Below, in pieces: positions 6,886 to 50,837 of a stretch of 64,000 nt of DNA. The position numbers were made by a program, and so were the translations under genes. Position 1 is the first letter of the stretch, and every line of letters starts with the position of its first letter. The notes beneath the pieces were generated by a model. It made no database searches. It saw nothing but the letters and a program-made list of their open reading frames with translations, and had not been told where the DNA came from. This DNA comes from Spartinivicinus poritis (GTDB lineage: Bacteria > Pseudomonadota > Gammaproteobacteria > Pseudomonadales > Zooshikellaceae), in NCBI RefSeq assembly GCF_028858535.1, contig NZ_JAPMOU010000015.1, positions 1 to 64,000 of the forward strand, given 5' to 3'.

Positions 6886-7284
6886 ATGATTACAAAAGCA
6901 AACACTGCTCTATTAAAGGCGTTTGCCGTTTTAATTTCGGTATTAATGTTTTCTATTTCGGTAAATACGTATGCTGATAGTATGCGTTGTAAAAATCGAC
7001 TGGTTTCAACCGGTGATTCAAAAGCAACAGTATTATTAAAGTGTGGCGAGCCTTGGTTGAAAGAAGACCACAGCTATACAGTGACTGAAAAAAGAAATAG
7101 TGACTTATATCGCTATAATCAACAGCATAATGGCGTCAATGCTCATGGAGCCAGTAGGGAAGTGACCAGGCTTATCAAAGTAGAGAAGTGGACTTATAAT
7201 GTTGGACGTAACAAGTTTCTAAGAATTATTACTTTCAAAGAAGGGGTTATTGACTCTATAGAAACAGGTGATCGAGCCAACTAA
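6886..7284 (+). CDS. DUF2845 periplasmic protein
   Basis: A 132-aa protein starting at ATG 6886 (an in-frame TTG lies 11 codons earlier). The signal peptide is cut near TYA-DSM. The mature part shows the DUF2845 pattern: C-x-x-R-LVSTGDSK, V..KCGEPW, then a two-stranded VEKWTYNVG...LRIITFKEGV-IDSI end. The two cysteines probably form a disulphide. The family is a common gammaproteobacterial periplasmic protein, related in fold to the SmpA/BamE-type lipoproteins, with no proven function. It is a single gene closed by a strong terminator at 7311-7345. Confidence 0.75.
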   Translation: MITKANTALLKAFAVLISVLMFSISVNTYADSMRCKNRLVSTGDSKATVLLKCGEPWLKEDHSYTVTEKRNSDLYRYNQQHNGVNAHGASREVTRLIKVEKWTYNVGRNKFLRIITFKEGVIDSIETGDRAN

Positions 7285-7310
7285 TTGAGTTTGTCATTTA
7301 ATTCAAAAAG

Positions 7311-7345
7311 GCTATACCTGCCGACAAGGTATAGCTTTTTCTTTT
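7311..7345 (+). terminator. Rho-independent terminator of the DUF2845 gene
   Basis: GCTATACCT and AGGTATAGC form a perfect 9-bp stem around a 7-base loop, followed by TTTTTCTTTT. It lies 27 bp after the stop. The A-rich left side could make it work from the minus strand too, ending the nar operon transcript. Confidence 0.85.
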
Positions 7346-7359
7346 CCGCTGTAACTTTC

Positions 7360-8184
7360 TTATAGCAACCCAGCATCCTCTAAGTTTATTTCAATCCCCT
7401 TTATATTCGCCTCAGCCACCAATATAGCTAAGTATTGTTGAATAGCCCTTAGTCTCACTTTTGTTTGTAGGTAGCTTTTAATTTTAGTTTCAACTTGCTC
7501 ATAGGAGAGCGGTTGGCCTTCTGCCTTTGCTGTTACCCAAACCACATGATAACCGTAACGTGTTTCAATAGGTCGAGGTGATAGCCCAGGTGCTAGCTTA
7601 AATACTTGGCGTTCAAACTCTGGGGTGGTTTGTCCTTTGCTGATTTGTCCTAAATCACCGCCAGACTCTTTGGATGGACAGGCTGAGTAGGCTAAAGCAA
7701 GTTCATTGAAAAGAGCGGGCTCATTAGTCAGTTCCTTAATTATATTTTCTGCTTGTTGCTTAGCCTCCATTCGTGCGGGGGTATCTTCTGGTGCTGCTGC
7801 TAATAAAATATGCTTAACTGCCATGACAGGAGGGCTGGTAAAGCGCTCTGGGTTAGTAGCATAGATTTGTTTGCACTCTTGTTCTGAAGCAGTGGGGATA
7901 TCTACTTCTTGTTCTAATAATGTGCGTATAGCGGCTTCTTCTTCAGACTCTTCAGTCCTTTGTTCTATGGGCAGTTGCTGTTTTTTTATTTGTTGATTAA
8001 GTAATAGCTTTATTACTAACGCTTGGGTTGCTAAATACACGGCTTCTTCAGGGTTGTCGGCTGGATGGTACTGCACCTCCTGGGCAATGTCCTGTTCTGA
8101 TATTTCTTCTCCATTGACGAAAACAGGATTAATTGTAATCGGAGCTGTTTGGTGTGAAGCATGAGAGCAGGCTGGTTGATTCAT
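7360..8184 (-). CDS. Parvulin-type peptidyl-prolyl isomerase of the nar operon
   Basis: A 274-aa protein with a NifM/SurA-like N-terminal helical part (residues 1-115) and a parvulin domain at about 120-230: VKHILLAAAPEDTP, LFNELALAYSACPSKESGGDLG, TPEFERQVFKLAPG and ETRYGYHVVWV. Parvulins speed cis-trans isomerisation of proline bonds. There is no signal peptide, so it should act in the cytoplasm. PpiC-type genes are often the last gene of narGHJI operons in Pseudomonas-like bacteria, where they are thought to help assemble the reductase. It follows narI in the same direction after a 285-bp gap that holds a palindromic repeat. Confidence 0.85.
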   Translation of the reverse strand: MNQPACSHASHQTAPITINPVFVNGEEISEQDIAQEVQYHPADNPEEAVYLATQALVIKLLLNQQIKKQQLPIEQRTEESEEEAAIRTLLEQEVDIPTASEQECKQIYATNPERFTSPPVMAVKHILLAAAPEDTPARMEAKQQAENIIKELTNEPALFNELALAYSACPSKESGGDLGQISKGQTTPEFERQVFKLAPGLSPRPIETRYGYHVVWVTAKAEGQPLSYEQVETKIKSYLQTKVRLRAIQQYLAILVAEANIKGIEINLEDAGLL

Positions 8185-42241: not shown

Positions 42242-44686
42242 ATGATAGCTTCAAATTCTCGTGAAGATACTTTAATAGAACAGCGTGCAGCACTGATTCG
42301 TGACAAGGATAAGGATTTTGCTAACTGGGCAGCAGGTTATGGCGTGATTAAGCATAGTGCTGAAACACAGTTACGTATTTACGAAATGGTTTGTTTATTG
42401 GCAACAGAAGGGGGTGTTACCAGTAAAAGCGAGGCCTATCAACAACTAGCGGCGTTGGATAAATTGACCTGTGCGGCGATGTGGTTAGTTGTCCATATGA
42501 CTTATGCCAAAAATGTCTATTTAGATGGTAGAGAGTTAACTGCTGTAGATTTTAAGCGCCAACCGCAGGGGCATACGGGTGGTTCACTCAACATGGTGCC
42601 TGGTTATATGGGCTATATGGGGGTTAATGCATTAACAGGTATTACCCGGCAATGGTTAATGGGACAAGGTCACTGTGTCGCAGCAATCGATGCGGTGAAT
42701 TTGTTATTAGGAAATACAACAGCTGTTCACAAAGAACACTATGACTGGTCTGATCAAGGATTAACCCGTTTTGTAAGGGATTTTTACAGTTATTTGGTGA
42801 ATCAACAAGGGAAGCCCGTTTCACCACTGGGTAGTCACGTTAATACCCATACGGCAGGTGCAACCATTGAAGGTGGTTATTTAGGTTTTGCTGGCTTGTA
42901 TTATGTTCACCAACCCATGCCAGGTGAGCGCTTAGTCGCTTTTTTAAGTGATGGTGCATTTGAAGAACAACGGGGTAGTGACTGGGCCCCTCGGTGGTGG
43001 CGAGCTGAGGATACGGGCTTGGTGACTCCGATTATGATTGCCAACGGTCGTCGTATAGATCAGCGTACTACCATGAGTCAGTCTGGTGGTTCTGAATGGT
43101 TTAAACAGCATTTAGCGTTAAATTATTTTGACCCTGTTGTTATTGATGGTACGGATCCTGCCGCTTTTGTGTGGGCAATTTTTGAAATGGAAAATCGTCT
43201 ACAAGCAAGGGCCGAAGCAGTTAAGCAGGGTAAACAGCATTACCCGATAAAGCTCCCTTATGTAATTGCAGAAACAGTAAAAGGCTATGGCTTTCCAGGT
43301 GCTGGTACTAATGCTGCCCATGGTACACCTTTACAAGCAAACCCTGCCAAGTCAGCAGAAGCATTAACGGCATTTAACCAAGGCGCTAAAAAACTTTGGG
43401 TGTCTGATGATGGGCTGAAAAATGCAGTTAAATTGGTTAATAATCATAATCAAGTAAGTCGTCCTAAAGAAAGTACGGTAAAACAGCTTACAGAAAAAGC
43501 CAAAGTAAATAGCCCGTCTCTGCATTGGAAACAGGAGCTGTATGATAATTACTCCCCTATGGCAGGATGGGACGAAAGCTTTACGCAGTTAGTAAAAGAG
43601 AACCCGCATTTACGAGTGAGGGTAGGTAATCCAGATGAATTAAGAAGTAATCAAATGAACCAAACCCTTGACTGGCTCAAGCACAGAGTAACTGAACCTG
43701 AACAAGGTGTTGCTGAAGCCGTGGGTGGTAAAGTGATTACAGCACTTAATGAAGAGGCAGTAGTCAGTGCTGCATTGGCAAACCAACAAGGAATTAATTT
43801 GGTCGTTTCATATGAAGCATTTGCAGTGAAAATGCTGGGTGCACTTCGCCAAACGGTTATTTTTGCACGACACCAAAAAGAGGCGCAACAACCTGCAAAT
43901 TGGCTAAGTGTCCCTGTTTTGCTGACTTCTCATGTTTGGGAAAATGGTAAAAATGAGCAATCTCATCAAGACCCAACTTTATCTGAAGCGTTGATGGGTG
44001 AAATGACTGATATGGTAAGGGTATTGTTCCCTTGCGATTGGAATAGTGCTGTAGCCACAATGCAATCAACTTACACCAGTTATGGGCAAATTTGGCTAGC
44101 GACATTGCCTAAATTACCTGTGCCACTCTTTTTCTCAAAAGAACAGTCCGTCAGATTACTTGAAGAGGGTGCAGTATTAGTCAGAGGTGCTGCTGAAGCA
44201 TCAATTCAATTAGTGGCAGTGGGTGCTTATCAATTAATAGAAGCATTAAAAGCCAGTGACCGTCTAAAAGAGCGAGAGATACCCCACTCACTTGTTTATA
44301 TTATAGAGCCAGGTCGATTTAGAGTGGCAAGAGATAAAGCGGAAGCAGAGCAGTTAGTGGCTGATGACGTAATGGATAATGTATTTCCAGATACCGTTAA
44401 CACAAGAGTATTTGTTTGTCATGGTCGCCCAGAAGTGTATCTTGGTATTATGCGGCAACTGGATCTGGGAACTAAACAGACGGCTGCTGTAGGCTATATC
44501 AACCAAGGTGGTACTTTGGATATAGGTGGAATGCTTTATGCCAATAAAACAACGTGGGCACATATTTTATACCAGATTGCTAAGACTGCATCGTTAAACC
44601 CACAAGCTATTCTGACAGAAAAAGAAATTCAAGCGGTAACAGGGGCTGGTGACCCTTATGCAATTATTGCTAAACCTTATCAGTAG
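42242..44686 (+). CDS. xfp: Phosphoketolase (xylulose-5-P/fructose-6-P)
   Basis: An 814-aa thiamine-diphosphate enzyme that splits xylulose-5-phosphate (and often fructose-6-phosphate) with phosphate to give acetyl phosphate and glyceraldehyde-3-phosphate or erythrose-4-phosphate. Signatures are GHTGGSLNMVPGYMGYM and EGGYLGFAGLYYVHQPMPGE (phosphoketolase motif 1 region), then a TPP motif GDGAFEEQRGSDWAPRWW. The C-terminal half has SHQDPTLSEALM and HGRPEVYLGIMRQ. Full length. It gives ATP through acetate kinase, useful without oxygen. An FNR-like site lies upstream. Confidence 0.96.
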   Translation: MIASNSREDTLIEQRAALIRDKDKDFANWAAGYGVIKHSAETQLRIYEMVCLLATEGGVTSKSEAYQQLAALDKLTCAAMWLVVHMTYAKNVYLDGRELTAVDFKRQPQGHTGGSLNMVPGYMGYMGVNALTGITRQWLMGQGHCVAAIDAVNLLLGNTTAVHKEHYDWSDQGLTRFVRDFYSYLVNQQGKPVSPLGSHVNTHTAGATIEGGYLGFAGLYYVHQPMPGERLVAFLSDGAFEEQRGSDWAPRWWRAEDTGLVTPIMIANGRRIDQRTTMSQSGGSEWFKQHLALNYFDPVVIDGTDPAAFVWAIFEMENRLQARAEAVKQGKQHYPIKLPYVIAETVKGYGFPGAGTNAAHGTPLQANPAKSAEALTAFNQGAKKLWVSDDGLKNAVKLVNNHNQVSRPKESTVKQLTEKAKVNSPSLHWKQELYDNYSPMAGWDESFTQLVKENPHLRVRVGNPDELRSNQMNQTLDWLKHRVTEPEQGVAEAVGGKVITALNEEAVVSAALANQQGINLVVSYEAFAVKMLGALRQTVIFARHQKEAQQPANWLSVPVLLTSHVWENGKNEQSHQDPTLSEALMGEMTDMVRVLFPCDWNSAVATMQSTYTSYGQIWLATLPKLPVPLFFSKEQSVRLLEEGAVLVRGAAEASIQLVAVGAYQLIEALKASDRLKEREIPHSLVYIIEPGRFRVARDKAEAEQLVADDVMDNVFPDTVNTRVFVCHGRPEVYLGIMRQLDLGTKQTAAVGYINQGGTLDIGGMLYANKTTWAHILYQIAKTASLNPQAILTEKEIQAVTGAGDPYAIIAKPYQ

Positions 44687-44787: not shown

Positions 44788-44979
44788 GTAACTTACCACA
44801 AGCATTGTCTTGTAAATAGTGATTATTTACAAACTCAATATATGGTTTCTCGAAAAATTTATTCTGAGCAACAGAATTAGCAACCACCCTGCTGATATTA
44901 TTTTTAGTTTCTTCTATTTGTGCATACCTAGCTCAGCCCTTTTTAATTTTTCATAGGCTGTTATAGGGTTTTTGAGTTG
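44759..44979 (-). pseudogene. Unrecognised broken gene fragment
   Basis: On the minus strand two adjoining frames read like one protein with a frameshift: LKNPITAYEKLKRAEL in one, then RYAQIEETKNNISRVVANSV, followed by FFEKPYIEFVNNHYLQDNAC and LLKAGEFYGQ-stop in the other. It overlaps the antiporter remnant tail to tail. The composition is protein-like but no family is recognised and there is no start. It may be a 3' end left by a rearrangement. Confidence 0.25.
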
Positions 44980-45201
44980 TTATAGCATGCTTCTCTGAAT
45001 GACTGATGAACCCTCGTAGCAACGATAGGTTTCCATACATTCAGCTATCAGCGTGTTTTCAAAGGGCTATAGGTAAAACGCAAGTTAATATAAACTTACT
45101 TTGTTGAAGGTGACACACAAATATGAACCACTAGTCACTTTATAGTAAATAAGATAGTATGGCCTGTATTTTATAAATAATGGATCTATTAAAAATTTCA
45201 C
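44980..45201. other. Upstream region of the racemase-CDPS unit
   Basis: No gene seen. It should hold the promoter of the two-gene unit at 45202-47090. TTAATATAAACTTACTTTG and TTTATAGTAAATAAGATAG are AT-rich candidates for a promoter but cannot be placed with confidence. No FNR dyad or palindrome found. Confidence 0.35.
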
Positions 45202-45915
45202 ATGCAAAAAATTCTAATTATTGTTCCAGTAAACAATACACAATTTAACCAAACTATCAAAAGAGCTGTTCAGCCTGTAATTCCACCTGATTTTTCAGTT
45301 GACATACTGAATATTAATGAAGGCAGTGACTGTATTGAAAGTCGGTATGACCTCGTTAGAAATGCACCGCATGTTGTTAATCTAGCAACTCAAGCTGAAC
45401 AAGAAGGCTACTCAGGTTTATTTATAACTGATATGGATATGTGTGGTGTAGAAGCTGTAAGAGAAGTGGTTAATATACCAACAATTGGGGGCTTTCGTGC
45501 AAGTGCTTACACTGCAATGATGTTAGCTAACAAATTTTCCATAATTACTGTCATGGATAGTGTTGTAGCATTACAAGAACAGCATATCAAAGAATTTGGT
45601 TTAGTTCATAATTTTGCCTCTATTCGCAATGTAAATGTGCCTGTTAAGCACTTAGGAAATGAAGAAATTATTTTTAACAAAGTATTAGATGCTGGCAGAT
45701 TAGCCATTATAAATGATGGTGCTCAAGCTATAATTTTTGGCTGTACAGGTTTCGTTAACATGGCAACAAGAGTAAGCAAGGCGTTAGAAGATGAAGGGAT
45801 TAGAATACCTGTTATAGACCCTAATTGCGCTGCTATTAGTTACTTAGTCCTGCTTATTAGAAATCAGCTATTACAAAGCCGTAAGGTATATCAACGGCCC
45901 ATTAATTTTACTTAA
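45202..45915 (+). CDS. Hydantoin/Asp-Glu racemase family protein
   Basis: A 237-aa protein of the two-cysteine, cofactor-independent racemase superfamily, closest in layout to hydantoin racemases. It begins with KILIIVPVNNT, has DMDMCGVEAVREVVNIPTIG with Cys81 and IIFGCTGFVNMA with Cys181, and ends with DPNCAAISYLVLL. The two Cys act as acid and base on the two faces of a substrate alpha carbon. Hydantoins are cyclic diamides, as are diketopiperazines, so a substrate made by the next gene (cyclodipeptide synthase, 11 bp downstream) is an attractive inference. The first Cys context (DMDMCG) differs from free amino-acid racemases. Confidence 0.8.
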   Translation: MQKILIIVPVNNTQFNQTIKRAVQPVIPPDFSVDILNINEGSDCIESRYDLVRNAPHVVNLATQAEQEGYSGLFITDMDMCGVEAVREVVNIPTIGGFRASAYTAMMLANKFSIITVMDSVVALQEQHIKEFGLVHNFASIRNVNVPVKHLGNEEIIFNKVLDAGRLAIINDGAQAIIFGCTGFVNMATRVSKALEDEGIRIPVIDPNCAAISYLVLLIRNQLLQSRKVYQRPINFT

Positions 45916-45926
45916 AAGGTTTGATT

Positions 45927-47090
45927 ATGAATGAAGTAGATCAACTAAAAAAAATTTTTGATCATCATCAAACTAAGTATATAACAATTAATTTTTCACA
46001 GTTTTGTTCTGAGAGTGAGTTACAGCTTCTTAGTGATCTAAAATATATCAAGCTAGTTAAAGTTTCACTCGTACAGTTAAGTGGAGCTTTAAAGCTACTA
46101 GTTTATCCTGAAGGAAACTCCCTTTGTATCGATAAAATAAAGTCTTCACTCAAATGTACTAGTGTAGAAATTGTATCAAATGCTGAAATAAAAAAATGCT
46201 TCCCTAGTATTAAATCAACGACATTACTTCCATTTGGCGATCTATATGGTACAGAAACATTTGTTGATCAAGCGTTAATAAGAGCCAAAAAAATTGCTTT
46301 TTTTTCTAAAAATAAAGATGAGTTAATAGTATTAAACTATGATGACTACTCAAAAATTATAAAACCAGAGTATAATAATATATCAAATAAGAGTCTTATG
46401 GCAATAAAGAGTTTTGTAGCTCCGAAAGAAAAGCGTAACTACTTAAATAAGTATAAAAAATGTTTTTTTGGCGTATCATTACAAAATGAAAACTTTTCTG
46501 ACGATAAACGATTGGCTGCTAGTTTAGACTGGATTTCAAATAACTTTGAATATTGTGAAGTCTTGGTTGGTGATTATATACACAGGCTTACACTGCAAAT
46601 TATTGACTGCTCTTTGGATGATAATGACTCTTACGATAAGGCTCTTCAGCTTGGCAGAGAGTTTGTTTCAGACAAAATTGAACTGTTTGCAAAATATTCA
46701 AGCTCCTGTCAATTTGAAATTAAGTATATGTCTGAATACCATCGAGATAGCTGCTACTCCCATCATAGAAAGAATTTTTTAGAGTTTATTGAGTGCAATC
46801 AACATTACAACCACATACTAACAAAATTTGCTAACACATTTGTACAGCGCTTAATTAATACCAAAAGCTTAAGTCTAACAGATAAAGAACGTGGAGTTGC
46901 TTTATCAAGAAAATATTTGATTGATGAGGGTGCTATTTTCTCACAAGCTGTATCTAAAGGATATAACGTTTTAGTTTACCCTGGCTCAATTGATCCATTT
47001 ATTCATATTTCTGAAGGAAACTATCGGTATGCCCCAAAACTATTAAAGGAAATGGTATGTGTAGGATTATCACTAAAGCATATTAAGTGA
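45927..47090 (+). CDS. YbaK-like deacylase domain fused to a cyclodipeptide synthase
   Basis: A 387-aa protein from ATG 45927 (AAGG site; TTG 45921 is in frame). Residues 1-150 look like a YbaK/ProX aminoacyl-tRNA deacylase domain: Lys45 in LVKVSLVQ, TLLPFGDLYG, TFVDQALIRAKKIAFFS, DELIVLNYDDYSKIIKPE. Residues 165-387 look like a tRNA-dependent cyclodipeptide synthase: CFFGVSLQNENFSDD with nucleophile Ser184, YLIDEGAIF with Tyr330 and Glu334 (AlbC Tyr178/Glu182), and VLVYPGSID, the YP pair of the XYP subfamily (Tyr351-Pro352). CDPSs join two aminoacyl groups from tRNAs into a diketopiperazine. CDPSs are usually 220-280 aa, so the extra N-terminal domain is unusual. Product unknown. The unit is cotranscribed with the racemase. 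Confidence 0.85.
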   Translation: MNEVDQLKKIFDHHQTKYITINFSQFCSESELQLLSDLKYIKLVKVSLVQLSGALKLLVYPEGNSLCIDKIKSSLKCTSVEIVSNAEIKKCFPSIKSTTLLPFGDLYGTETFVDQALIRAKKIAFFSKNKDELIVLNYDDYSKIIKPEYNNISNKSLMAIKSFVAPKEKRNYLNKYKKCFFGVSLQNENFSDDKRLAASLDWISNNFEYCEVLVGDYIHRLTLQIIDCSLDDNDSYDKALQLGREFVSDKIELFAKYSSSCQFEIKYMSEYHRDSCYSHHRKNFLEFIECNQHYNHILTKFANTFVQRLINTKSLSLTDKERGVALSRKYLIDEGAIFSQAVSKGYNVLVYPGSIDPFIHISEGNYRYAPKLLKEMVCVGLSLKHIK

Positions 47091-47179
47091 TTCAGTTTCA
47101 CACTGAACATAAGTTGTTTAGCTTTTTGCAGCATAACCATCTTTAGATAGTCAAATTAGCTGATAAGCTGCCTTATCGG

Positions 47180-47567
47180 CTAACAACGTGCCCAAAAAAC
47201 AGCCACGCTGACATTTATTTCTTTGGTAACCTTTTCCATTAGCTTGCCATTGGCAAATAATATTTTTCGAATAGTTCGAAGTACTTCACTGGTAGCCGAT
47301 TTGTTAAAGATTATAGCTTCGGGCCGGTGGTTTCTTAAAATGGCTGAATAAACACCAGATGCGTTAATAAGCCTGTAACTCCTGGCTTCCACCAAGGGAC
47401 TGTATAATCTGCATGCCCTTTTCATCGTCATCTAAGCGTGTGATTGCACTTGCTTTAGAGTACGGTAGTGCATCAGCAACAGCCTTGGCCATGAACCAAG
47501 TTTCACCATCTTTGTCAATCACTCGGATTGATGAGTGATTAAATTTTAGTGGAATGATGCTGCTCAC
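47180..47567 (-). pseudogene. Phage BRO-N antirepressor, frameshifted
   Basis: The first frame (from 47567) has the BRO-N start: LKFNHSSIRVIDKDGETWFM, then AKAVADALPYSKASAITRLD, ending QELQAY-stop at 47364. Homology continues in another frame as LINASGVYSAILRNHRPEAI, IFNKSATSEVLRTIRKI, down to 47180. Intact proteins run through this junction (about 47376) without a break. The C-terminal DNA-binding domain is missing. This is a dead prophage gene. Confidence 0.75.
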
Positions 47568-47682
47568 AATAGAGTCTACTCTTTATGGTCATTAAGGAGT
47601 ATTTCCAGGCTGAAAAGGGCATACGATTAGAGAGTACTAGCTCAATGGTCTCTAATATTTTTGTAACATCATGTAACACCAA

Positions 47683-47696
47683 TTGATCTCAATCAA
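47683..47696. promoter_or_regulatory. FNR/ANR-type box 1 before the secreted paralogues
   Basis: TTGAT-CTCA-ATCAA is a perfect FNR consensus match. It is centred 43 bp upstream of a second box, about four helical turns. It lies 112 bp from the chosen start of the first secreted paralogue. Confidence 0.6.
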
Positions 47697-47725
47697 TAAA
47701 GTTAATAAAGTCCCGGCCTGAAAAA

Positions 47726-47739
47726 TTGATATAAGTCAA
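47726..47739. promoter_or_regulatory. FNR/ANR-type box 2 before the secreted paralogues
   Basis: TTGAT-ATAA-GTCAA, one base off the FNR consensus. A site centred at 47732 would put a class II start near 47774, which leaves a short leader before the ATGs at 47790 and 47808. Confidence 0.6.
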
Positions 47740-47807
47740 TTGGTGTATATTTGGTGTTATTAAAAACACTTGTGTTTAACTTGGTTGGTATGATTTATAA
47801 GCTTGTT

Positions 47808-48209
47808 ATGAGAAGTATAAAAATTCCTCTTTCTGTATTATTTTCTCTTTTTTTTATGTTGTCACATGTAGCATTTGCAGACACAACAAATGTATTTTGC
47901 GCTAAACCTGATGGAAGCAAATGGTATTGGCTAAAAAATAATGAAGGTAATCAGGTAACTGTTTCTGGAGAGTGGGAGGAAGTAACCCTACAAAACAATG
48001 ACAATATTTATATTTTTAAAATATCACACACAAATTATGATAACCTTAACTCCCAATGTAGAGAAAATTTTGTAGCGCAGCCTGCTAATAATACATTTTC
48101 AAGCTGGAGTGTGTTTTATGTAAACAAAGCTGACGGAACAAATTATATTGCACCAGGAATATATATAAGTCTCCCAGAATGCTCAGCTTGTTTCATTCGT
48201 TTTAAATAA
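47808..48209 (+). CDS. Small secreted protein, tandem paralogue 1
   Basis: A 133-aa protein from ATG 47808 (in-frame starts also at 47790 and 47751). The signal peptide ends HVAFA-DTT. The mature part starts NVFCAKPDGSKWYWLKNNEG, then NQVTVSG.W, and has NSQCRENFVAQPANNTFSSW and a Cys pair near the end (PECSAC). The same blocks occur in the next gene, so the two are tandem duplicates. No family recognised; four cysteines and a W/Y-rich core suggest a small disulphide-stabilised secreted domain. Two FNR-type boxes precede it. Confidence 0.65.
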   Translation: MRSIKIPLSVLFSLFFMLSHVAFADTTNVFCAKPDGSKWYWLKNNEGNQVTVSGEWEEVTLQNNDNIYIFKISHTNYDNLNSQCRENFVAQPANNTFSSWSVFYVNKADGTNYIAPGIYISLPECSACFIRFK

Positions 48210-48232
48210 ATAATCTAAATCAGGTGGTTAAA

Positions 48233-48652
48233 ATGAAATACATGATGCTTAAATTGTTAACTGTTTTTCTAATCCTGCTTTGTTCTCACACATATGCTGA
48301 ATGGACCAATGTAATTTGTGCTAAGCCAGATGGAAGTAAATGGTATTGGCTGAAAGACTCCAATGGTAATCAAGTCACCGCTTCTGGGTTATGGTCTGCT
48401 GCTTATCTAAGAAGTTCAAGTACTGAATATATAGATGCTTTTAATATCGGTGATGAAACGTATAATAAAATCTCTTCACAGTGTAATAACTCATATGTAG
48501 CTCAGCCTGCAAAGTCAACATTTAGTTCATGGGCTGTTTTTCAGGTTACAAAATTTGATGGTACTTCATATTTAGCTCCAGGAAAGTTTGTTATATATAG
48601 AGATCGTAATTGCTTTATGAGCCCTGTAAATTGTCAACTACAAAGTAGGTAA
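48233..48652 (+). CDS. Small secreted protein, tandem paralogue 2 (3' end possibly altered)
   Basis: A 139-aa protein from ATG 48233, six bases after AGGTGG. The signal peptide ends HTYA-EWT. It shares NVICAKPDGSKWYWLKD, GNQVTASG.W, SSQCNNSYVAQPAKSTFSSW and YLAPG with paralogue 1. The frame stops at 48652, but another frame stays open to 48785 with protein-like content (NCLANSCNGYYITAGCVKPG and on) and runs into IS-related DNA. So the original C-terminus may have been longer and lost by a frameshift. Function unknown. Confidence 0.6.
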   Translation: MKYMMLKLLTVFLILLCSHTYAEWTNVICAKPDGSKWYWLKDSNGNQVTASGLWSAAYLRSSSTEYIDAFNIGDETYNKISSQCNNSYVAQPAKSTFSSWAVFQVTKFDGTSYLAPGKFVIYRDRNCFMSPVNCQLQSR

Positions 48653-48719
48653 CTGCTTAGCAAATAGTTGCAATGGTTACTATATAACAGCAGGCTGTGT
48701 AAAACCTGGTCAAAATTTT

Positions 48720-48944
48720 TCATTCGGTCATCAATTTCAACCAAGGGTAAGTTTTCGAATTGAAAATATAAACAGCCATCTTTAGAACGTGTTTGCAAAA
48801 TAAAATTGAAGCAATTTTCCTGATCAAAATATACAACATAGCAATTTGGATTATTGCTTCACTGTTTTTTGGAAGAACCTCGTAGTCTTTAGCATGATGT
48901 CGATAATTAATGAGCCAAGAAAAAGTCTGCTCAATAATCCAGCG
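48720..48944 (-). pseudogene. C-terminal remnant of an IS5-type transposase
   Basis: Minus-strand codons from 48944 read RWIIEQTFSWLINYRHHAKD, then YEVLPKNSEAIIQIAMLYIL. This is the conserved end of IS5-family transposases (RW.VERTFAWL...R.L..DYE..P), including the catalytic-region Glu in IEQTF. There is an in-frame stop just before RWII and no N-terminal part. Reading on to 48720 goes past the transposase end into host DNA. Dead remnant. Confidence 0.75.
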
Positions 48945-49044
48945 CTAGGGTGGGTTGTCCTTTCTTCCTATTTTTTCGATAACATTTTCGTAACCTATCC
49001 ATTACCTGTTGCCATACCCCTAAAAACCCATTTATAAAACCCTA

Positions 49045-49689
49045 TCCAACCAGATAAATATCACCCAGTTAATCGCAGGTAAACTCACCGTACAGGATGA
49101 AACGGTCATTAAATTTGATGTGGTAACCATTGAGCTGGATAACCGCGAAGTTTCCAAAAAACGGGGCTACCAGGTAGCTATCAACCCAGAACTGGCCAAT
49201 ATCAAGTTTGAACACCTTGACCAACGGGCGGAAAGTGACCTTAACCTAGCATTGCCTCGTGACATACACAACAGTAAAAGCTGTGTGACCGTTAATGAAA
49301 GGAATGATTAACAATCTGTGCAAACTTATTGGTTCTCTGAAGATAGCAACAATAAATTCAAGTAATTGTGGGTGGCGGTGAGCCTCAATACACCCTACGT
49401 GACACTTACAAGACTGGCCGATCAAGCCAAACACATGGCAGAAGGCAAGTTAAACAAATTGAAACGGGGTAAAAAGTCACTCACTTTAGTACGCCCTTTA
49501 TCGCCAGAAATAGTAGCAGAATCAAAGTTAATTATTGCTAATCATAAAACTAGTGCTAATGGGGAGTGGGTTGTTAAAACTGTTCAGCATACTGTTGGCT
49601 CAGGAAACTATACTGAAACTAGCGTGGAGGCGATTTTACCAAAGAAAAGTGTAATTATTTTAATTTTTGCAAATAAAAGCCAAATATAG
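49045..49689 (+). pseudogene. Phage late-control gene D protein with internal deletions
   Basis: Three pieces of the gpD-type tail protein lie in order. N-terminal piece 49045-49145: NITQLIAGKLTVQDE, then DVVTIELDNREV. Middle piece about 49150-49311: GYQVAINPELANIKFEHLDQ, RAESDLNL, then a stop. C-terminal piece 49366-49689: TRLADQAKHMAEGKLNKLKR, LTLVRP, and ANGEWVVKTVQHTVGSGNY. Normal gpD proteins have about 330-380 residues, whereas only about 200 residues remain, with deletions at the two joins. The protein forms the tail hub of P2-like phages or tailocins. No other tail genes are near, so this is a relic. Confidence 0.75.
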
Positions 49690-49700
49690 TAAAAGTGCTT

Positions 49701-50126
49701 ATGGATATTAAAGTAATTGTTGCATTAATTAGAGTATTAGGTGTTTTGGTTAGTGCGGGTGTACAACTTTTTCTTGGGTCAAGATGTGAAAAAAGAAAAA
49801 AAGCCCTTGATATTAAGGCCGAAGCATACTTGGATTTCTTAAACTCGGTTTCAGAAATAGCTAGTTCCTATAAGCATAATGAGAATAGAAGCTTAGAGCA
49901 ATTACAAGTCTTGAATAAAGCAAAGACAAGAGTTGTATTAATTGGAAGTGATGAGGTTGTGTTAAGTTTAAATAATTTTTTTAAAGTATATGGTAATTTA
50001 AACTCAGATGATGCCAACTTCTCTTTTAGTAAAATTGTAAAGTCAATGCGAAAAGACTTATCAGATACAGACAATATAAGTATAGATATTGTTTTCAACT
50101 CTCTTTTTAGTAAAGCTAAAAGCTAA
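49701..50126 (+). CDS. Small membrane-anchored protein of unknown function
   Basis: A 141-aa protein from ATG 49701. One N-terminal hydrophobic segment (VIVALIRVLGVLVSAGVQLFLG) is followed by RCEKRKKALDIKAEAYLDFL and a helical soluble domain. The layout is that of single-span proteins often found in prophage and accessory regions, with the domain in the cytoplasm. No family was recognised. It lies 11 bp after the decayed gene D and may be a phage cargo gene. Confidence 0.5.
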   Translation: MDIKVIVALIRVLGVLVSAGVQLFLGSRCEKRKKALDIKAEAYLDFLNSVSEIASSYKHNENRSLEQLQVLNKAKTRVVLIGSDEVVLSLNNFFKVYGNLNSDDANFSFSKIVKSMRKDLSDTDNISIDIVFNSLFSKAKS

Positions 50127-50195
50127 CTTATTAATAATTAGAACAATATAGTCTACCTCTACTTGGAGTTGTCCTTGTAAGCAGTTCTTCCCTTG

Positions 50196-50324
50196 TTAAT
50201 GGAGGTTTCTATACCTAAACCCACCAATTATTTCTATAACAACACCAGTCTTTTTTGATAAGGCAGTTAGCTCTTTGATGAATTACTGTAAGTGCTGTTT
50301 TTCGGTTAGGGTAGCTGGTTTCAT
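50196..50324 (-). pseudogene. Short gene with an in-frame stop
   Basis: ATG 50324 has a good ribosome site (AAGGAGAG). It reads MKPATLTEKQHLQ-stop-FIKELTALSKKTGVVIEIIGGF and on to a stop at 50196. The frame after the TAA stays protein-like. Either the gene is broken by a single nonsense change or only 13 codons are made. Family unknown. Confidence 0.35.
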
Positions 50325-50367
50325 AGTGCTCTCCTTGCCGGTGTTTGTGTACATACCCAGATTAACT

Positions 50368-50622
50368 CTATAATCTTCCCCAATGAAGTTTTCCTTCAGA
50401 TAAAACAATTACACTCTCTGCTATCAACTCTCCCGTTTCGTTATCGTACAGTTTTCCAAAGCTTTCTACAGGTGCATCCGTTATATTATTCGGGTCTACC
50501 TCATTCAGCAGACCTGTTGCAGTAAGGCTACCAGATTCTATACCACCCTGGTGAAACCCAAGCTGAGTAATAAAGTCATTTGGAACAAGCACATTGCCAT
50601 TACTTACCTTGCTACCAAGCAT
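50368..50622 (-). CDS. Hypothetical 84-aa protein
   Basis: The frame reads MLGSKVSNGNVLVPNDFITQ, then GFHQGGIESGSLTATGLLNE and ends SEGKLHWGRL. No signal peptide, membrane segment or known family. It lies upstream of, and in the same direction as, the broken gene at 50196-50324, within phage-derived DNA. The weak ribosome site and the setting leave open that it is a fragment. Confidence 0.35.
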   Translation of the reverse strand: MLGSKVSNGNVLVPNDFITQLGFHQGGIESGSLTATGLLNEVDPNNITDAPVESFGKLYDNETGELIAESVIVLSEGKLHWGRL

Positions 50623-50837
50623 GGCAACAGGCTTATTAATCTACCTGTAACGGCTTGCAATGTGAATATTGTAGCAGGGTGTATAAATTTACGTTCAAGC
50701 AAAACGTTAATTTAAGTTTCAGTTATGTGTTAATTGACTATTCTTACTAGTAGTGCTCTTAATATACCTAATACGTAGGGTATTGTTGAGTTTTGAGGGT
50801 GTCATAGATAAGTTTATTTTTATTCTGGAGAAGTCAG

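Follow-up and report, generated by a model that had tools for sequence, protein, structure and literature searches.

A YbaK-type domain fused to a cyclodipeptide synthase and encoded next to an Asp/Glu racemase-family gene in Spartinivicinus poritis

A protein of Spartinivicinus poritis joins an N-terminal domain, by sequence a homologue of the YbaK/INS family of aminoacyl-tRNA editing domains, to a C-terminal cyclodipeptide synthase (CDPS), and its gene follows directly on a gene for a member of the Asp/Glu racemase superfamily. The YbaK-CDPS fusion and racemase pair is real, rare and recurrent, and neither the fusion nor the racemase link is unique to the window, the term used here for the whole stretch of 64,000 nucleotides that was analysed (contig NZ_JAPMOU010000015.1). 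The pair may be an acquired two-gene unit that makes a D-residue-containing cyclodipeptide from charged tRNAs, a tentative reading that we hold at slightly less than even confidence.

Gene organization and origin of the locus

A preliminary description of this DNA reported a racemase gene followed 11 bp later by a protein of 387 amino acids, and both open reading frames are present in that arrangement (Table 1). The start of the fusion gene was placed by the ORF tool at TTG 45921; the ATG at 45927 is preferred because an AAGG motif (45916-45919) precedes it by 7 bases. Promoter-like sites numbered 12 against 13.1 expected by chance, with none inside the 11-bp gap, and the two genes probably constitute one unit. 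Further downstream, inside the same insertion, lie two ORFs (window 47751-48209 and 48224-48652) for small proteins that resemble each other, have starts like those of signal peptides and show no Pfam match.

The stretch that contains the pair is missing from G034, a genome of the same genus in which the flanks match at 87-88% and about 1.24 kb of other sequence occupies the matching place; in G100 the left flank alone was matched in the stretch examined. A phosphoketolase-family gene (window 42242-44686) marks the conserved left flank. The GC content is 30.8% in the fusion gene, 35.3% in the racemase gene and 39.2% in the window (that of the inserted stretch is given in Table 1), and the searched genomes of the same genus (two) and of the same family (two) have neither gene. 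On the simplest reading, the gene pair would have been gained in the lineage of the window, the alternative being loss in the others.

Table 1. Features of the locus (window coordinates)
Feature	Position	Strand	Remarks
Stretch without counterpart in G034	44795..50695	.	5.9 kb; GC 34.8%; contains the gene pair
Racemase gene	45202..45915	+	Asp/Glu/hydantoin-racemase family; 237 aa; ORF intact
Intergenic gap	45916..45926	+	11 bp; AAGG ahead of ATG 45927
YbaK/INS-domain - CDPS fusion gene	45927..47090	+	387 aa
YbaK/INS-type domain	45936..46376	+	fusion residues 4-150
CDPS domain	46410..47081	+	fusion residues 162-385; S184, Y330, E334, Y351-P352

The cyclodipeptide synthase domain

The CDPS part of the fusion scores above the cut-off of the curated NCBIfam family TIGR04539 (51.5 bits against 45) and slightly below that of the Pfam CDPS profile (25.6 bits against 27), and matches the solved CDPS 9j61 by sequence with an E of 2.9e-28. 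The residues named in the preliminary description (Ser184, Tyr330, Glu334 and Tyr351-Pro352) are invariant in all seven aligned CDPSs, so that the catalytic Ser, Tyr, Glu and Tyr-Pro are present as it had stated. In the AlphaFold model of the fusion the block means of pLDDT are 73-94 across residues 171-380, and the top solved match of the modelled domain is again 9j61 (Z 27.6, rmsd 1.8 over 208 residues, 30% identity), a comparison that bears on residues 162-387 and barely covers the other parts. The model assigns a Rossmann-like CDPS fold to the C-terminal part, the outcome of a structural check that had been suggested from the outset. The catalytic residues appear to fit the XYP subfamily of CDPSs. 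This subfamily is among those named in the available part of PMC5816076.

As the nearest solved relative, 9j61 (from Streptomyces sapporonensis) resembles the window CDPS in fold and catalytic residues and differs from it in an identity of about 30% and in having no YbaK part. Its species name suggests that 9j61 is the bicyclomycin enzyme BcmA, and bicyclomycin derives from cyclo(Ile-Leu) (PMC5930311, available in part). A bicyclomycin cluster within the window was considered and rejected, the flanking ORFs scanned with Pfam not being oxygenases.

The YbaK/INS-type domain

Fusion residues 4-148 match the YbaK-like solved protein 3op6 (E 3.8e-15). A profile was also built from 30 YbaK-like rows, selected by their similarity to the window domain, with one gene represented twice and the window itself excluded; the N-terminus of the fusion reaches 88.7 bits with it. 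None of 1000 shuffles scored as high (maximum 8.4), which rules out a chance similarity to YbaK, and the Pfam tRNA_edit score of 22.2 bits lies slightly below the cut-off of 25.5. The AlphaFold model is poor for residues 4-150 (pLDDT block means 37-67, with Foldseek rows to 3op6 at TM 0.10-0.22 for this low-confidence part), and for this reason their assignment as a homologue of YbaK/INS domains, which bears out the earlier view of the first 150 or so residues, rests on sequence.

Lys45, the catalytic lysine, stands where it had been placed before and is invariant in all 11 aligned domains, the window and ten standalone relatives. The same alignment shows that Pro102-Phe103-Gly104 is retained, that Thr98 replaces the glycine opening the GXXXP loop (T98-xxx-P102), and that Phe23, Lys128 and Lys130 stand where the relatives have His, Gly and His, the last of these losses carrying less weight because His130 is not near-invariant among them. 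According to the available part of PMC9425024, trans-editing domains conserve both the catalytic Lys and the GXXXP loop. The window domain is thus homologous across residues 4-150 to the YbaK/ProXp/INS trans-editing domains, including 3op6 and E. coli YbaK (2dxa, matched with a profile that included the window domain), and keeps their catalytic Lys, but it lacks the GXXXP glycine and is fused to a CDPS. The suggestion that the fused domain proofreads is doubtful because this glycine, together with other conserved editing residues, is gone even though Lys45 is kept. Hydrolysis has probably been lost or changed, and some form of tRNA handling would be the likeliest remaining use of the domain.

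Occurrence of the fusion in other CDPS loci

When 32 CDPS loci, the window among them, were tested with the YbaK profile, three N-termini beat all 1000 of their own shuffles: those of the window, of G098 (a CDPS of 358 aa; 17.0 bits against a best shuffle of 4.7) and, weakly, of G420 (324 aa; 11.0 bits against 10.4). The profile gave at most 0.2 bits or nothing at the remaining 29. By these scores the domain is better preserved in the window than in the other two fusions, whose N-termini are degenerate and without the PFG-L-G stretch; that of G420 also starts late, and Pfam identified an editing domain in neither CDPS. A structure model of the L066 protein, with pLDDT below 50 at residues 18-98, was uninformative on its N-terminus. 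The homologue search that had been proposed for the fusion hence yielded two distant counterparts, both degenerate and the second weakly supported. A local joining artefact was rejected because the same domain order recurs in two distant proteins.

A tree computed for 16 of the CDPS domains from the 32 loci groups the window in a ten-row set (98/96) with G098, G420, G784, five actinobacterial CDPSs and the second CDPS of its own genome. In this tree the three CDPSs of YbaK type do not group as a clade, and the branching inside the set lacks resolution; the fusion may have arisen once or more than once. Of eight proteins examined next to two of these five actinobacterial loci, seven are 2OG oxygenases, which bicyclomycin clusters likewise contain, whereas none occurs among the ORFs scanned that flank the window gene. 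The G784 CDPS has no YbaK part and bears a cyclic-nucleotide-binding domain at its C-terminus; the CDPS at L075:8313-9620 (minus strand), with such a C-terminal domain, is flanked by very large proteins, and the one that was scanned carries GAF and histidine-kinase domains.

The second CDPS of the window's genome (G000, contig C17, L059:4703-5488, minus strand) is a protein of 261 aa without a YbaK part that scores 106.8 bits with the profile of the window's CDPS subgroup and 17.0 bits, below the cut-off, with the Pfam profile. Two methyltransferase-family genes and a carbamoyltransferase-like gene lie nearby, and this locus is possibly another cyclodipeptide cluster. The Pfam CDPS profile had no match in the window's own genome nor in any of 14 controls, which makes this negative uninformative. 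A search of genome contigs with the single fusion protein (38 stretches) found no relative, nor did a search of viral contigs, and a plasmid collection gave one record covering 21% of the CDPS query, with no ORF of at least 170 aa there.

Catalytic positions of the racemase

The racemase reaches 109.7 bits with PF01177 (E 2.3e-31; cut-off 31), a score that places it in the Asp/Glu racemase superfamily, and its nearest solved proteins are 3qvj (KpAllR) and 5lfd. The catalytic residues of KpAllR are Cys79 and Cys184 (PMC12661438, available in part). In the alignment with 3qvj, which is free of gaps in that stretch, Asp77 takes the position of the first catalytic Cys and Cys81 aligns to a Pro, while Cys181 occupies the canonical second position. 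The enzyme had been described as a two-Cys racemase, of which the second cysteine holds and the first, Cys81, is off-register; judged by alignment, it has Asp77 and Cys181 in place of the Cys/Cys pair of hydantoin and allantoin racemases. Among eleven aligned racemases, eight have Asp at the first position, seven of these eight also have the extra Cys, and ten have the second Cys. The canonical first Cys is present in the Vibrio relative and in the second racemase of G098, and 5lfd, called an allantoin racemase, has Gly and not Cys at this position of the alignment. The epimerase OpaE and the allantoin racemase KpAllR, both matched by sequence, belong to the same superfamily as the window enzyme but have Cys/Cys dyads, according to the accessible part of PMC12661438. 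The subfamily may therefore possess an unbalanced Asp/Cys pair, or else use Cys81 in some other way; the same portion of that paper mentions a Thr/Cys pair, likewise unbalanced, that favours one direction. A second, distant racemase-family gene of the window's genome (L090, about 7193-7768, plus strand) has neither catalytic Cys at the aligned places. The racemase query matched three records of a phage collection, at 24-34% identity.

Linkage of the racemase to CDPS and DUF917 genes

The CDPS subgroup of the window comprises nine of the 32 loci, those that score at least 296 bits with a subgroup profile itself built from seven of the nine. The racemase gene adjoins the CDPS gene in two of them, 5' and on the same strand (11 bp in the window, 367 bp in G784), and lies 5.5 kb away in G098. 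G420 has the CDPS and no racemase of this kind in its whole genome, and tblastn found no racemase in the stretches around the five actinobacterial subgroup loci (8 kb on each side; 2.5 kb upstream in Williamsia). The linkage anticipated in relatives accordingly recurs in two other genomes, G784 and G098, and was not found at six of the nine subgroup loci (one searched as a whole genome, five as stretches).

Both genes are rare. Of 369 class genomes, 18 match a CDPS of any kind, the window's own (G000) and G420 with one of the subgroup, and the racemase subfamily is found, at E 1e-60 or better, in two of the 369 (G000 and G670); the subgroup CDPS profile matches one of 398 phylum genomes, again G000, and three of 381 order genomes (G000, G098 and, weakly, G363). 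Within the genus of G098, four of six genomes have the racemase, and among these four G098 alone has the subgroup CDPS; since the racemase is common in that genus, only the nearness of the two genes is informative there. CDPS-linked racemases are not one clade in a racemase tree, which calls for three changes, at least two of them forced.

A DUF917 gene (S-Me-THD, PF06032) adjoins the racemase gene in G098, G784, Paraburkholderia phymatum, Vibrio, G172, G233, G193 and G670. In G784 the N-terminal domain alone was matched, and a shortened DUF917 could be an assembly fault in this draft genome of about 500 contigs. Six loci (G193, G172, G233, G670, Paraburkholderia phymatum and Vibrio, the last with a more distant racemase) have the racemase-DUF917 pair and no CDPS in the surrounding stretch. 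DUF917 has no match in the window's genome, in a search that is shown to work by its matches in two of 14 controls; at the two loci where the racemase abuts the CDPS it is thus absent or, in G784, N-terminal only. Hydantoin racemases and DUF917 are enriched in cyclodipeptide-oxidase clusters without CDPS, according to the available part of the survey in PMC11055893. Because DUF917 is the usual partner, and in view of this enrichment and the racemase tree, a cyclic-amide module is the most likely source of the racemase, which would have been recruited to CDPSs more than once, or with later losses.

In G172, G233 and G193 the genes near the pair encode a TonB receptor and two periplasmic binding proteins, whose domains were assigned from the G172 copies. 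A histidine kinase gene lies beside the pair in G172, in divergent orientation, and G098, G233 and G193 contain similar sequence. The module of racemase, DUF917, TonB receptor and two periplasmic binding proteins is conserved within one genus (L058, L087, L088 and L089), with the divergent kinase at L087 and similar sequence at the other three loci. Next to the pair in Paraburkholderia and Vibrio lie genes for sigma-54 or AAA regulators.

Precedents

NozR, published in 2023 for the nocardioazine pathway, is a racemase-family enzyme that isomerises a CDPS product (PMC10156859, available in part). It shares with the window racemase its membership of the Asp/Glu racemase family, but according to that source it is encoded at a locus apart from its CDPS, whereas the window racemase adjoins one, and its dyad is Cys75/Cys179, whereas the window enzyme has Asp77 first, a comparison drawn with the published residues and not with the NozR sequence. 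CDPSs with C-terminal fused domains have been published (PMC5816076, in the part available); the extra domain of the window protein stands at the N-terminus and derives from a family of aminoacyl-tRNA editing domains. No YbaK-CDPS fusion was found in the accessible portions of the open-licence literature searched, the portions of two CDPS surveys among it name none, and in one paper that mentions both CDPS and YbaK they are separate proteins. Within that literature, the earlier statement that no system with all three parts has been described stands, except that the half in which a racemase acts on a CDPS product has its precedent in NozR.

A possible pathway and its alternatives

In the proposed two-gene unit, the C-terminal CDPS would transfer an aminoacyl group from a charged tRNA to Ser184, accept a second aminoacyl group from another tRNA and release a cyclic L,L-dipeptide, a step suggested by the fold and residues of the domain. 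The product residues are perhaps aliphatic, as the kinship with bicyclomycin-type CDPSs hints. The YbaK/INS-derived domain would perform no classical editing and would instead help to bind or choose the charged tRNA. The racemase would then act on this cyclic product and invert one of its alpha carbons, probably through the unbalanced Asp77/Cys181 acid-base pair and for that reason perhaps with a preferred direction; this step is proposed on account of the gene linkage and the NozR precedent. The CDPS fold, the subgroup kinship, the linkage at low base rates, the missing or partial DUF917 and NozR argue for the proposal. It is weakened by G420 and the five actinobacterial loci, at which no such racemase was found, by the racemase-DUF917 loci without CDPS, by the racemase tree, in which the CDPS-linked enzymes do not form one clade, by the draft state of G784, and by a dyad unlike the Cys/Cys of NozR. 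As the racemase sits beside DUF917 without a CDPS elsewhere, the substrate of its core chemistry may be something other than a cyclodipeptide.

On another view the two genes are chance or historical neighbours, the racemase serving another, hydantoin-like cyclic amide pathway and merely travelling with the CDPS. The six CDPS-free racemase-DUF917 loci, the enrichment reported in the available part of PMC11055893 and the racemase-free G420 are in keeping with it; recurrence of the linkage despite low base rates and the lack of a DUF917 match in the window's genome speak against it, and we consider it rather unlikely. A different role for the fusion, in which its N-terminal domain would have kept its hydrolytic activity on unwanted aminoacyl-tRNAs and would thereby proofread what the CDPS receives, draws on the retention of Lys45 and on the good preservation of the window domain relative to the other two fusions. 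Set against this are the substitutions at Thr98, Phe23, Lys128 and Lys130, the conservation of the Lys and GXXXP loop reported for trans-editing domains (PMC9425024, in part) and the loss of the PFG-L-G stretch from the other fusions, which make active editing unlikely.

The company that the racemase keeps in other genomes admits a third role, in which the CDPS product would be a signal sensed, imported and broken down by a module of racemase, DUF917, TonB receptor and sensor kinase, with the racemase on the uptake side. Receptors, binding proteins and kinase sequences beside the pair, the regulators in Paraburkholderia and Vibrio, the cyclic-nucleotide-binding domain of the G784 CDPS, and the large G784 flanking protein with GAF and histidine-kinase domains, which the other flanking one resembles, are all consistent with such a function. 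No gene of this sort occurs among the insertion ORFs scanned, however, and the loci are few; signalling is on balance distinctly improbable. Just as speculative is a broader picture in which tRNA-dependent D-cyclodipeptide systems make up a class of their own, where an editing domain retired from its former function would serve as the built-in charged-tRNA selector of the CDPS and an unbalanced Asp/Cys isomerase would be recruited from the racemase-DUF917-receptor-sensor module, the ring that is made and the ring that is sensed belonging to one signalling circuit.

Implications

If the two-gene reading is true, a domain of translation fidelity would have been reused inside a natural-product enzyme, and the fusion would offer a direct way to ask how a CDPS chooses its charged tRNAs. 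Adjacent genes for a CDPS and an isomerase would give access to D-containing cyclodipeptides from two genes, and the atypical Asp/Cys pair could yield a directional isomerase.
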